Source: Udeniomyces pyricola (Eukaryota; Basidiomycota; Tremellomycetes; Cystofilobasidiales; Mrakiaceae). From it: DNA of 40,705 bases. Every line of letters starts with the position of its first letter. Position 1 is the first letter of the stretch. The notes below the pieces were generated by a model that saw only the letters and a program-made list of their open reading frames with translations, searched no databases and was not told where the DNA came from. The position numbers were made by a program, and so were the translations under genes. Below are positions 1,790 through 27,835 of the stretch, in pieces. The stretch lies in contig BCIK01000025.1 of assembly GCA_039545295.1 (NCBI GenBank), forward strand, positions 1 to 40,705, read 5' to 3'.

Positions 1790-3380
1790 TCAACCTCCAT
1801 CGTCTCGATCTTCGGTCCTGATCAACGATTGAGAGTCAAGATCGACACTGTCCAACAAGAGTGCCTGAGGGCGGAAAGGGAAAAGACCATGAAGCAGCAC
1901 TGCGTTTTGCATGAGGCAAAGATTCACTATGAAATCTGCAAAATCAACCCCAGTCATCACAATGCTGCATGGCGATGCCATCGGTCTTTTCAAGATAGCA
2001 TCCGTGCTTGAAACAATCGTGCTGGACGTTGACGACCGCGATCACATCCTGCAGAGACCGAATGCTGAATCTACGGGCAGCCCGATCATGGTGAAAAGAG
2101 AGCGATCCCATACGAGTCCGGATTGGATGAAACCGAGGATCTTGCTGTTTCTGGTCGATTAAAACACGGAAGGTCACTGAACCGCTGTTGATGGCGGACT
2201 TGTTGATCGACGACGACAAAGTCTCGACGCGACCGAGTATCAGAACAGGACCTCGGGTCGTGGGGCCTTCTCTCATCTGCAGATTCATGGAAGCTGTCAG
2301 CTGAACCCGGAGTGCAATCCAAGAAAACAGAAAGGGGGGGGGAGGGGGGGGGAGAGAGAGCGATGGTGTAATCACCTGGATTACGACAGCACTTCCCAGA
2401 CCTCCTTTGTCGCCATTATGGAAGACAAACTTGGTTCCTTGCCGGAGAAGAGCGGTCTCTATATGGGTTCATATGAGACGATCAGGTTCTTTGATCTACA
2501 GATGTTATGAGTGAATCGACCTCAGGTATGACAGCCTACTCACTGGTCTTTGTGTCATGAATCAGACCTAGAACCTTTCGACGACCCGACGCCTTCTTGC
2601 CGAAAGCTTTGACTTTGGAGCCAGCATAGGTCAACATCGATCCATGCATCCAATATCCTCAGCTGAGGATATTTCACAAATAATTGGAAGGAAATGCGGG
2701 ACATAGCAATATCGCGACTCGGATTGTGTTTGTTCGAGTGCGAGGATTGCTTTCTCCAGACTTTATTCTTCGACTCATAGGACCCAGTCTGCAAGAGACT
2801 GAGGGGCCCAAACCGCACTATTCACAACGCGGCATGGACAAATAAATGGAATTTGGGTTTATGGAACCAGTCGATGCTTTGCAGAGCGACACATTGAAGG
2901 AAGAACTGGATATTGGGGATCACATATTCCTGAGAACAAACAGAGCGTGAAGTGATTGTCGATGGAACGAACCGCCCCGTACAAACAAGCTGTGAGCACC
3001 ACACACCAAGTATTGATCCATGTTAGATATCTCCGGAACGTAAAGCACGCTTGCAAGTCTTGACCAGGACGTCCACATGTCAAGCTCGCGTTGCGTCAGG
3101 TACGGCTCCACTGCAAAGATAGCGAATTGTTGAATCGCTCGGAAGTTTCTGCCAATCAGACTTTTGGCGTAAACAACCAGCTGACGGCCTCGTAGGTGCT
3201 TAGCGGTGTTGCCATCCTGAGTGTCCACGGTGGACAGCCGATCAGCCGCTTCACGATGTTCACTAGATCGTGCCATATGTACTTGGTCACACCCAGCAGA
3301 CCAGTATGCAGGAGCTCAACGGATGTGTCGAGATGGGGGTTGAACCCAAGCGACTCTGTGAAGTGAAATGATAAAATCAA
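1790..3380 (-). pseudogene. Decayed basidiomycete transposon-type protein, 5'-truncated
   Basis: Fragments in order on the minus strand match a protein family that is very abundant and repeat-borne in basidiomycetes; its biochemical role is not established. They are: a FNPHLDTSVELLHTGLLG block (3380-3260), a VYAKSLIGRNFRAIQQF block, WFHKPKFHLFVH (about 2850), RFGPLSLLQTGSYES and NPSRDIAMSR (2818-2690), HNGDKGG (about 2430), then VVNVQHDCF and DFIVNLCLMQNAVLLHGLF (2000-1860). Likely introns remain between several blocks. The frame changes near 3260 and again near 1950. An in-frame TGA at 2822-2824 sits inside the conserved stretch between KPKFH and RFGP. The large N-terminal half expected of the family is missing, cut off before the neighbouring CDK gene. 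I read it as a dead mobile-element gene. The family match is from memory; I found no transposase catalytic motif. Confidence 0.7.
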
Positions 3381-4210
3381 GGAAGAGAATAGGGAAGAGA
3401 AGGGGAGCAGTGGATGTGAGGTGATGGTTTGAGAGGTGAAACGATGGTTCGACGAAAAATTCGATCACTTGTGCAAACTCATGATGATCCTACTGCTTAT
3501 AATTAGTCATAATGGTTCAAGCTGTATCGATCGACGTGGCCCCGATAGTTTTGATCATCTCCGTTGCACAGCCCTGTGTATCCTTTCCCCCCTGGCCTCA
3601 GACCTCATGAGCCGTAAGGCCGTCTCTAGAGCGTAGAGATCTAGCTGGATATTCACCGTTTGTCTGGATCGATGGATTGAAAGACAGTCAGGGCACAACA
3701 CATAGTGTTAAAAGAAGATCGGAGCAGGTTAGGATGGTCACACGCGCAAGGATGAGCTGCTATTGGCTGGACGACTGAGGTCAACCATGTCGATATAATT
3801 GAACTGATAAGAGATCACCTGCAGGGGTGGAGCACAGTTGATAGTTAATAGTTGCTCCTGATCATCGATCATGATGCAGCATGATAAACTCCGAGTTGTA
3901 TCATATGAAGGCCGAATGAGAGAGAACGAGGAACGCAAGAGACAGAGCTCAATATGAGTACATGTATTTTTATGTGTACAGTTTACTATATGCCAAGTCA
4001 TATTGCTGTCATCCCATTGAATCGCAGCTGTATATATAATATAATCATAACCGGTCACGTTGCAACTTATCTCGTCCATTATCCGTCACGTGCACGTTAC
4101 CCGTCACGCCCCACACGTCAAGCTAAACCAACGGCCCTCATCCATGATGACACCGATCCCTCATCAATCTCAACCTCGCCCATCCTCCCGCATCCTCTCA
4201 TACCCCAATC
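3381..4210. other. Intergenic, upstream region of the CDK gene
   Basis: No coding signal was found. The 200 bp nearest the CDK start contain a CACGTG E-box and several CACG cores around 4086-4120, so this is probably promoter sequence. The missing N-terminal part of the transposon-type pseudogene would be expected here, but no recognisable block remains. Confidence 0.5.
4087..4092. promoter_or_regulatory. CACGTG E-box upstream of PHO85-like gene
   Basis: A perfect CACGTG palindrome lies about 120 bp before the CDK start codon, followed by further CACG-type cores (GTGCACGT, CCCACACGT) within 35 bp. In yeasts CACGTG is the core site of Pho4 and Cbf1-type bHLH factors, and Pho4 is the target of Pho85. 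Function here is inferred from position and motif only. Confidence 0.4.
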
Positions 4211-24635: not shown

Positions 24636-25608
24636 ATTGACGTCTTTCGTGGGGATTGATTGAGAGATGGAGAGGGGCTGGATTGGTTGGAGCGAATGGA
24701 TGGATTAATGAATGGATGGGATCAACTGTAATTATGAGCGAGGTGAAGCAAGGCAAGGCGAGGCAGGGGCGAGGGGTCAAGGGGGGGGGGAGACGAAACG
24801 TTGGATTATGGCAAGGTATGGTATATAGATATGATGAACGTGGCGGAGAAACGTGAGGAGGCATCGATGACGCGTCACCCCACACACATCAGAGTACAAA
24901 ACAGACAGCCAGCCACCCGTCAGTTTCCGTCCAACACACCTGCCTTGGTATTCTGACCAACCGAACCAATGACAACAGTTCCAAATGTACGAACAGAAGA
25001 CGTCGTCACGTTGAGTTCCGGGTGGCGGTTTGCAGGGCGAAAAATGAAGAGCAATCGTAAGCGGCGATCTCATCCGGCCGGAATCGGCCAGCCGCCGGGC
25101 GACGAACTTGGTCATCATCTTTCCTGTCTTGCATGGTAGATCGATATTCGATCGCCGCTCAACTTCGACAGGCACACGAATCCTTTGATCATCCATAGTA
25201 GTCGATCCTCCCAGATTTTTGTTCTGATAAGTACCTGCCTCACACCCCTCAACTACTCGCGTTCGCGTCTTAGTAGTTAGTACGCACTGCTTATTACCAT
25301 CTGCGTCATTTGGGTCATACACAAGTGCCGATCGCTGTCGGGTCACCACGGCACGCGTAGTACGGTGCTCGCATTGAAATCGCTAGGAACGTCGTCCAGC
25401 TTCAAGTTGGATCATCTACCATATCTGATATCTTCATGACACTACATCAAATCATGATGGCATCAAAGTTTTCGTACCACGCAATCAACAGCACACGACT
25501 ATCAAAGTCATAAAGTCATCAACATCCGTCAAAGAGTGAGAAAAAAAAAGTGAAGGCGAAGGAGAGAAAAGGCTAAACCACAGAACAAAGCTACAAGTCT
25601 CTCCACAA
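24636..25608. other. Intergenic upstream of ATG26
   Basis: A 973-bp gap between the ATG26 start and the RRP1 stop, both on the minus strand. It should contain the ATG26 promoter and RRP1 3' untranslated region. A minus-strand open frame (24777-25349) has no recognisable domain. A run of G occurs at 24781-24790. No RNA gene is seen. Confidence 0.5.
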
Positions 25609-27457
25609 TCACTCGTCTTCTTCATCGTCCGCCCCGCCCATGTCTTTCCAGAACGCAAACGCCTTGCGTCGGTTCGAGTCCCGGCTTCCCTCCTTACCGG
25701 CCTCATCAAAGATACCTCTCAGCACACTCTTCCTCACCTCCGCGGCAGACCTGCCTTCGCCAATCACATTGGCGTACTCGCTCGCCTCGGCGTCCGACGA
25801 AGCCAAGCCGGCAAGCAGCGGCTCAAAGATGGCGGTCTGCAGTCGATTGAACGTGACGCTCGAGTTGGAGTGGAGATAAAGCGAGGTAAACGGGGCGAGC
25901 AGAAGAGACAACGGCGGAGCAGGAGCAGTCGAGGTAGAAGGGATCTTGTTCAATTCTTCAAGAATGATGTCGGACAAGTGGTACGATATTGATGCGGGAA
26001 CTCGGTGGTCTTGCCATCTAAACGTCACAAAGCGCAAGCAATCAAAAGAACAGGCAATTAGCAAACGGTTTATTGATCGTTTCCAAGTTTGGTAACAATG
26101 TGTGTAGGAAGGCGGAAAGAATCAGATAGGAGCGAAAGACTTTATAGATGTTTGAGTTCGGCATTCTCTAGTAGGAGTACGATTGAACTATGCATGCTTT
26201 AGATATCATCATGATGTGATAGGCGTGGAGTGGTGGTACACCGAAGAGGTACAACACATGTCGACCGAGGCAAACCAAGCGCGACTGTGCACGCTTCGGA
26301 ACGAGTAGCGAGCCCCAACGACACGTACGACAGAAATTCGAGACTCACGATAACGGTCCACCAGTAGCTTTGATGAGGATCTCGTTGTGGGCTTGAATGG
26401 AGGCTGCTTCCCAGCCGTCCCTCTGAAGAAGGCGCAGGGTGCCGTTGAGGAAACGTCGAACGAGCATGTAGTACTTGTCGAGTCTTTGACCGAACGAAAA
26501 ACAAGCGAGCAGATCAAGTACAAAATTGTCAGTCACGTAGTTTCCCATAGAGAACGAAAAGGTCAAGACATGTGTGTGTGTGCAGGAATGGTGAGGATCA
26601 GATAGGAGCGAAAGACTTTATAGATGTTTGAGTTCGGCATTCTCTAGTAGGAGTACGATTGAACTATGCATGCTTTAGATATCATCAGGTTGATTGTGAT
26701 CGGGCTCGGGAAAGAACCATGACGGGGATGGAAGGTACGAGATGCCGATACGCGGAAATTTGCAGTCAAAGCGGGGAAGGAAAAAAAAGCTCACCGAATC
26801 CTATCAATACCGTTCCATTCTCGGACGGTGGCCTCCCAGAAGCCCCCGACAAACTCGAGCGCGACAAGGGTCCTTTCGGACGAGGTCTTGCAGCCGGCCG
26901 GGTCGATTTGCAGAATGAGATCCGCGAGCTCCGAAGCGAGGGCCTGCTGAACAAGCGGTTTGTCGGACATCCAGAAGCCTATTGTGAAATGAAGGGAAAT
27001 TTTAGGAAGCCAAAGCAGGAGGAATGATAAAATCAGTATCTGTGACCAATTGTCCAACTACTCAGGGGTGACGAGAGAAAAGGGACAAGGGCAAGAGGGT
27101 AAAGAGACGAACAGTAAAAGAGACCCTTCCAGAGTTTGCCCATTTCTTTCGCGTCGAGACGACCGCCTTTGCCTTGGTCCTTGTTGAGGAAGGTGGCGAG
27201 TGACTTGATGGCTTTATCTCGTGTTGACTTTTCTGTGCCAAACGTTGCGACCGTCAGCTTGGGAGGTCATGGAGACCAAGAGGGAAGGAATGGGGTGGGG
27301 CGAGAGCGAGACAAGTGAAGGAAGCATGGGGACGGCGAAAAGGGAAGAAGAAGCCAGACTTACCCGTAGAGGCGAGGTACTTGCCCAAGGGAGGGGCTGA
27401 CGACTCGGACTTGGACGAGCTCTTGGCCGAAGCCTTTGACTTTGGAGCCTTGGGCAT
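25609..27457 (-). CDS. RRP1: Ribosomal RNA processing protein 1 (Rrp1/Nop52)
   Basis: Nucleolar protein needed for 27S pre-rRNA processing in the 60S pathway. Five exons give 313 residues (yeast 278): 27457-27364, 27232-27113, 26978-26795, 26483-26349, 26017-25609. Family signatures in order: GKYLASTGEKSTRDKAIKSL, LWKGLFYCFWMSDKPLVQQ, EFVGGFWEATVREWNGIDRIRLDKYYMLVRRFL, HNEILIKATGGPL, then DHRVPASISYHLSDIILEEL. The C-terminus is short and ends in an acidic run (ADDEEDE); the long basic tail of animal Nop52 is absent. Introns 3 and 4 are unusually long (311 and 331 nt) and each contains an identical 91-bp C/D snoRNA-like block, so the gene appears to be a snoRNA host. It diverges from CSN6 across 378 bp. 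Confidence 0.95.
26121..26211 (-). ncRNA. Intronic C/D box snoRNA-like sequence, copy 1 (RRP1 intron 4)
   Basis: On the RRP1 coding strand the block begins with TGATGA, preceded by A, giving a perfect box C (ATGATGA), and ends with CTGAT, containing box D (CTGA). Box spacing of about 90 nt is typical of C/D guides. The 16 nt abutting box D, AGTCTTTCGCTCCTAT, can pair with AUAGGGGCGAAAGACU of large-subunit rRNA (recalled, near yeast 25S 797-812) with one G-U pair. Fungal C/D snoRNAs are often intronic. The block starts 137 nt after the 5' splice site and ends 103 nt before the 3' splice site. Internal C' and D' boxes and a strong terminal stem are not obvious. Identity as a snoRNA is inferred but well supported. 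Confidence 0.8.
26597..26687 (-). ncRNA. Intronic C/D box snoRNA-like sequence, copy 2 (RRP1 intron 3)
   Basis: Identical over all 91 bp to copy 1. Here box C is CTGATGA, since the preceding base is C rather than A, so the first purine of the RUGAUGA consensus is missing. Box D and the rRNA-complementary guide are the same. It lies 107 nt after the 5' splice site and 113 nt before the 3' splice site of intron 3. Immediate flanks have diverged from copy 1 apart from short matches (TTCCTRCACACA downstream, GATCACA/TATCACA upstream), which suggests an old intron-scale duplication in which only the RNA has been preserved. Confidence 0.78.
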
Positions 27458-27835
27458 GTTTGAGGAGAGCAAAGGGGGGTGGGGGTGGGGGTGGGGTGGT
27501 TGGTTGGGTGCAAGATGGTGTTGGATTAGACGAAAATGTGAATGGGCCGAGAGAAACTCATGCGTGACGGGGGCGTGATGCGTGACAGAAAAGACTTGGA
27601 CGTAACGTTTCTTTGGTTCGCGGTGTGATCGATGGACTATCATCGACTATCGCCCGGGTGGATGGATGATGTGTGTGTTATACAGATGTTAACTATATAT
27701 ATTATCCCTTCATCGTCATCATCATCATCATCATCCCACATTCCATCCACATCTGATATTCATCTATCCCATTATCATCATCATTCTTCTTCTTACTACC
27801 TGCCTTGATCTTCCTCCCATACACCCCTGTCCACC
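27458..27835. promoter_or_regulatory. Divergent promoter region of RRP1 and CSN6
   Basis: 378 bp separate the two start codons. Close to RRP1 lies a G-rich array (27474-27498). Near CSN6 there is a CATCAT trinucleotide repeat (about 27709-27738). The two genes probably share upstream elements; no specific factor site was identified. Confidence 0.6.
27474..27498 (+). repeat. G-quadruplex motif just upstream of RRP1
   Basis: Four runs of 4-6 G separated by single T bases on the plus strand, 17 to 41 bp upstream of the RRP1 ATG. It lies on the template strand for RRP1, probably in or beside the 5' untranslated region. Folding is inferred from the pattern. Confidence 0.65.

Follow-up and report, generated by a model that had tools for sequence, protein, structure and literature searches.

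Copies of a putative snR60-family box C/D snoRNA in two introns of RRP1 and one intron of RPS30 in Udeniomyces pyricola

Introduction

Why should two adjacent introns of a ribosome-biogenesis gene carry the same short sequence, letter for letter? This question was raised by a stretch of 40,705 nucleotides (nt) from the basidiomycete Udeniomyces pyricola (GenBank assembly GCA_039545295.1, contig BCIK01000025.1, positions 1 to 40,705 of the forward strand; hereafter the window), in which introns 3 and 4 of the RRP1 gene share a 91-bp block. A preliminary description had interpreted this block as a duplicated box C/D small nucleolar RNA (snoRNA) hosted by RRP1, and had proposed a covariance-model search as a check. 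The analysis presented here points to a snoRNA of the snR60/U80 family, very probably genuine, of which RPS30 carries a third copy in its last intron.

Results

The repeat search returned a single two-copy family of 99 nt (26118-26216 and 26594-26692, 97% identity), the core of which was exact in 91 of 91 bases (26121-26211 versus 26597-26687). On the minus strand, that is, in the sense of RRP1, this core begins with TGATGA and ends with CTGAT, exactly as had been described, and an exact match of this length between the two introns cannot be put down to chance. The copy in intron 4 (26121..26211, minus strand) was designated copy A and that in intron 3 (26597..26687, minus strand) copy B. Counting one base upstream, box C reads ATGATGA in copy A and CTGATGA in copy B, and box D reads CTGA in both.

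When copy A was compared with the covariance model RF00309, it scored 45.1 bits, above the gathering score of 41, and the identification as a C/D box snoRNA was thereby upheld. A third copy, of 92 nt (G000:C1:979832-979926; L002:1504-1595; minus strand), was located in the last intron (intron 4) of RPS30, at the only RPS30 locus found in the genome. These three copies were the only matches listed at E <= 10 in the 25.0 Mb, in a search that scored 60 of its 1298 first-look candidates. The earlier count of two identical copies thus stands for the introns of RRP1 but not for the total, which the RPS30 copy brings to three. The families RF00335 and RF00016 gave no match in the genome and likewise none in the control genomes, and were hence uninformative.

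The RPS30 copy departs from copies A and B by three events, none of which touches box C, box D or either antisense element, and can be told from the RRP1 copies by its sequence. The two bases preceding the block and the three following it are common to copy B and the RPS30 copy, and copy A departs at one base on each side. Box C of copy A (AUGAUGA) matches in full the motif RUGAUGA found near the 5' end of C/D snoRNAs. The UGAUGA core of box C and both guides were intact in all three copies, as was box D, with CUGA close to the 3' end.

The identity of the host was confirmed by a gene model of five exons (27457-27364, 27232-27113, 26978-26795, 26483-26349 and 26017-25609), which gives the RRP1 (Nop52) coding region (25609..27457, minus strand) a product of 313 amino acids. 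In a domain profile comparison this protein matched Nop52 (PF05997, E 2.1e-73). Homologues at E <= 0.001 numbered 499, and the best of them among the matches listed (the best 120 of 499) was annotated as NOP52/RRP1 of Phaffia rhodozyma, with 49% identity, which would fit a source that is probably an agaricomycotine basidiomycete and perhaps close to Phaffia. In this model copy B lies in intron 3 (26484..26794, minus strand, 311 nt) and copy A in intron 4 (26018..26348, minus strand, 331 nt). All three copies are read in the sense of their hosts, and the distance from the end of the block to the 3' splice site is similar among them (103 nt for A, 113 nt for B and 117 nt for the RPS30 copy). The snoRNA-carrying intron of RPS30 measures 381 nt; four of the remaining introns of the two genes measure 131, 134, 103 and 93 nt, and the fifth, RPS30 intron 1, 763 nt. 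Phase 2 is common to the three host introns, a small coincidence.

As a separate observation on the host gene, exon 4 of RRP1 (26349-26483, 135 nt, a multiple of three) sits between the identical 91-bp direct repeats. Recombination between these repeats would delete 476 bp and take the exon out in frame.

Two antisense elements were recognized in copy A, and their letters were checked. The D-guide element, of 16 nt, lies upstream of box D (26126..26141, minus strand) and the D'-guide element, of 10 nt, upstream of a degenerate D' (26184..26193, minus strand); the latter is identical to the family consensus, GCAUAGUUCA. The same sequences are found in copy B at 26602..26617 and 26660..26669, respectively, on the minus strand. 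In C/D snoRNAs, the methylated nucleotide faces the base five positions upstream of box D or D'. On this rule, the predicted targets are the equivalents of nucleotides that we take to be numbered Gm908 (D guide) and Am817 (D' guide) in yeast 25S rRNA.

Target pairing was analyzed on eight loci, seven from genome records and one from a contig of a viral collection, picked by a pattern spanning the D-guide site. In all eight, the D guide forms 16 nt of pairing that include one G-U pair, and its fifth base faces a G; since the loci were selected on this very site, the result shows only that the complement is real eukaryotic large subunit (LSU) rRNA sequence. The D' guide lies outside the selection pattern, and its full 10-nt pairing was found in one (L012) of the seven loci that cover its site; the other six depart in their rRNA, and L008 ends short of the site. 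On L012 a distance of 91 nt separates the two target nucleotides, as it does for N. crassa CD48 (797/888; PMC2780460) and chicken CD36 (1469/1560; PMC2653536) in published tables. For the yeast positions, another table prints Am815 and Gm906, likewise 91 apart (PMC3511168). Seven of the eight loci (L009-L015) were assigned by Rfam to eukaryotic LSU rRNA, with no match over the gathering score for L008. A search of viral contigs for the two-guide pattern gave no match.

The records that supplied these loci deserve a comment of their own. L012 (NZ_QBKZ01000001.1) holds 592 bases of eukaryotic LSU rRNA at 3004-3595 (RF02543, 419.9 bits) within a 1.16-Mb contig labelled Mangrovicoccus ximenensis, possibly as a result of contamination or of a chimeric contig. 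The six others among the Rfam-assigned loci (L009-L011 and L013-L015) are bacterial metagenome-assembled genome contigs that consist of eukaryotic rDNA according to Rfam (LSU in 6/6, small subunit in 5/6), likely through eukaryotic contamination of the bins.

With regard to the origin of the copies, seven flank comparisons were carried out, with two scorings each, against 1287 control windows taken from both strands of the 40.7-kb window with 25600-27500 left out (mean permissive score 9.5). The upstream flanks of copies A and B do not align (loose score 9.5, reached by 755 of the control windows), and their downstream flanks align weakly (14.0, reached by 41 of 1287). A duplication of the whole intron between RRP1 introns 3 and 4 was considered and rejected, the upstream flanks being unalignable and the downstream ones only weakly alike.

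The comparison of RRP1 intron 3 with RPS30 intron 4 gave a permissive local score of 25.5 over about 110 nt downstream of the snoRNA, to near the 3' splice site, a score reached by none of the 1287 windows and by 1 in 1000 shuffles. Under strict scoring this similarity was unsupported (122/1287 windows reached the score; shuffle p 0.23). Upstream of the snoRNA, the permissive score was reached by 56 of 1283 windows. In a control anchored on 549 3'-splice-like sites, two equalled or exceeded the observed score, namely the intron itself and an overlap shifted by 10 nt, which scores higher; the next best other site reached 21.5. When the 3'-terminal 100 nt of each of the eight introns of RRP1 and RPS30 (93 nt in one case) were compared with one another, this pair scored 21.0, and none of the 27 others exceeded 16.0. 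The downstream similarity is therefore presented as suggestive only; if true, it would point to copying of intron DNA between these genes.

Discussion

The block was observed to be identical in two RRP1 introns, its host genes were identified, it matches a snoRNA family, and its intact guides are correctly spaced on eukaryotic LSU rRNA. We consider, with a probability of about 0.92, that it represents a genuine C/D snoRNA of the snR60/U80 family, housed in two introns of RRP1 (3 and 4) and in the last one of RPS30, and that it would act like other intronic C/D snoRNAs, with the duplicated copies probably as dosage back-ups. Transcription, processing, methylation and any dosage benefit of the copies are what we infer from the sequence. 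The host pre-mRNA would be transcribed and spliced, and the debranched intron trimmed to an RNA of about 91 nt protected by its ribonucleoprotein (RNP). The RNP would then bring fibrillarin to 2'-O-methylate the two LSU nucleotides named above. The extra copies would have come from duplication between introns and would probably serve as dosage back-ups, supplied by genes expressed during ribosome synthesis. As the preliminary description had proposed, such hosting could couple the production of a 60S processing factor with that of a modification RNA.

Several results weigh against this reading. Copy B scored 40.8 bits (E 6.8e-5) and the RPS30 copy 40.9 bits with RF00309, short of the gathering score by 0.2 and 0.1 bits, respectively, so that one of the three copies reached it; copies A and B are identical within the block, so the gap between their scores stems from the flanks. 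Matches to RF00309 below the threshold were also obtained in 8 of 14 control genomes, none of them above the cut-off. Box C of copy B and of the RPS30 copy reads CUGAUGA, which agrees with the motif at six of seven positions and has C instead of a purine as its first base. The D' box is degenerate (UCGU at the model position, where the family has CUGA) and C' is not clear. Three of the five pairs of the model stem are non-standard in copy A, and a stem beside boxes C and D was not seen. Nor did flank pairing as a terminal or external stem significantly exceed that of shuffled sequences with flanks of 20, 40 or 80 nt (the smallest p value, 0.067, was that of copy B at 80 nt). Furthermore, the guides were checked on the LSU of other eukaryotes, from public contigs, and not on Udeniomyces rRNA: rDNA of this species was not found in the assembly with a 21-base target pattern without mismatches or with the 5.8S model (39 of 858 candidates scored), and it appears to be missing from it. 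Box C/D snoRNAs usually have a short terminal stem beside their boxes but do not require one, and none of the departures in box C, D' and stem would, from the sequence, exclude function of the copies.

The deviations just described also fit a different arrangement, in which only one locus, such as RPS30 or copy A with its canonical box C, makes a functional snoRNA and the others are passengers from a recent duplication or gene conversion. The first base of box C and the scores just below the Rfam cut-off in copy B and the RPS30 copy agree with it, as does the exact identity of A and B over 91 bp between unalignable upstream flanks. We nevertheless find it unlikely, as every copy retains an intact UGAUGA core, box D and pair of guides, and all copies share the host sense and similar distances to the 3' splice site.

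How the copies spread is a further question. Retroposition of the mature snoRNA into introns, in the manner of snoRT elements, has been described for snoRNAs of mammals (PMC4515611), and the tract common to A and B corresponds almost exactly to the snoRNA, from TGATGA to CTGAT, between upstream flanks that cannot be aligned. We hold this route as doubtful, given that neither an A-tail nor a target-site duplication was seen by eye (no program test was made) and that the similarity between RRP1 intron 3 and RPS30 intron 4, with permissive scoring only, seems to run on for about 110 nt, which favours copying of DNA or of the intron. A tentative alternative, which we would not rate as the probable one, is that RRP1 became a new fungal snoRNA host through the copying of intron DNA, made up of snR60 and about 110 nt reaching to the 3' splice site, between intron 4 of RPS30 and intron 3 of RRP1, and that the snoRNA then spread to the adjacent RRP1 intron 4 or was kept identical with it by gene conversion. 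If so, the snoRNA would have moved with copied intron DNA and not through retroposition. Finally, a non-snoRNA repeat or mobile-element fragment with C and D box letters by chance, which a direct repeat with a dispersed third copy might suggest, is extremely improbable in view of the covariance-model match, the pair of conserved, correctly spaced antisense elements to rRNA and the finding of only three genomic copies, all intronic and in sense.

The preliminary description had counted absence of the block and its boxes from the orthologous introns of close relatives as a refutation. That condition asks too much, since snoRNAs move to other host introns in the course of evolution (PMC3511168, PMC3596301, PMC4515611). 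It had also known of no description of RRP1 as a snoRNA host, and no publication on RRP1/Nop52 in this role was found by title in our search either, which is weak evidence of absence, most subscription journals lying outside that search. RRP1 may be a new host of a snoRNA of known type, and this 60S assembly factor would join the ribosome-related genes that host rRNA-modification guides. The three-copy basidiomycete case would be useful for asking how snoRNAs move between introns, and near-identical copies in two hosts, one of them distinguishable, mean that dosage and host choice could be tested.

The picture of C/D snoRNA function is unchanged by the RRP1 and RPS30 copies. The snR60/U80 family is known and widespread, and biogenesis-gene hosts and adjacent-intron duplication are familiar (PMC8476143, PMC2653536). 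Introns with snoRNAs are mobile in fungi, basidiomycetes included (PMC3596301), snoRNAs are generally mobile between hosts (PMC3511168), and RPS30 (FAU) carries an H/ACA snoRNA in some sponges (PMC4515611). The pairs NOG2/snR191 and RPL7/snR59, conserved in fungi and for which coordinated expression was proposed by the authors (PMC8476143), resemble the present case in that a ribosome-biogenesis or ribosomal-protein gene hosts an rRNA-modification guide, but they involve other hosts and other snoRNAs (one H/ACA, one C/D), and their position is conserved across fungi. In Pleurotus ostreatus, an intronic snosnR60_Z15.1 is listed with g7941 as its host (PMC5040776); it shares the basidiomycete snR60 identity and the intronic location, with one listed copy versus three here. 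In Neurospora crassa, the snR60 homologue CD48 (91 nt, intronic, targets Am797/Gm888; PMC2780460) is, like the copies described here, a two-guide C/D snoRNA of about 91 nt with the same LSU target positions 91 nt apart, whereas three copies in two protein-coding hosts are found in Udeniomyces. A likeness to the RRP1 pair is offered by the snR60/U80 homologue of chicken, CD36 (GGgCD36a/b, targets A1469/G1560), whose two paralogues sit in a gas5-like host, one in intron 4 and one in intron 5, and for vertebrates the same report gives duplication in cis and in trans as the principal routes (PMC2653536); in both cases, the same snoRNA occupies two adjacent introns of one host.
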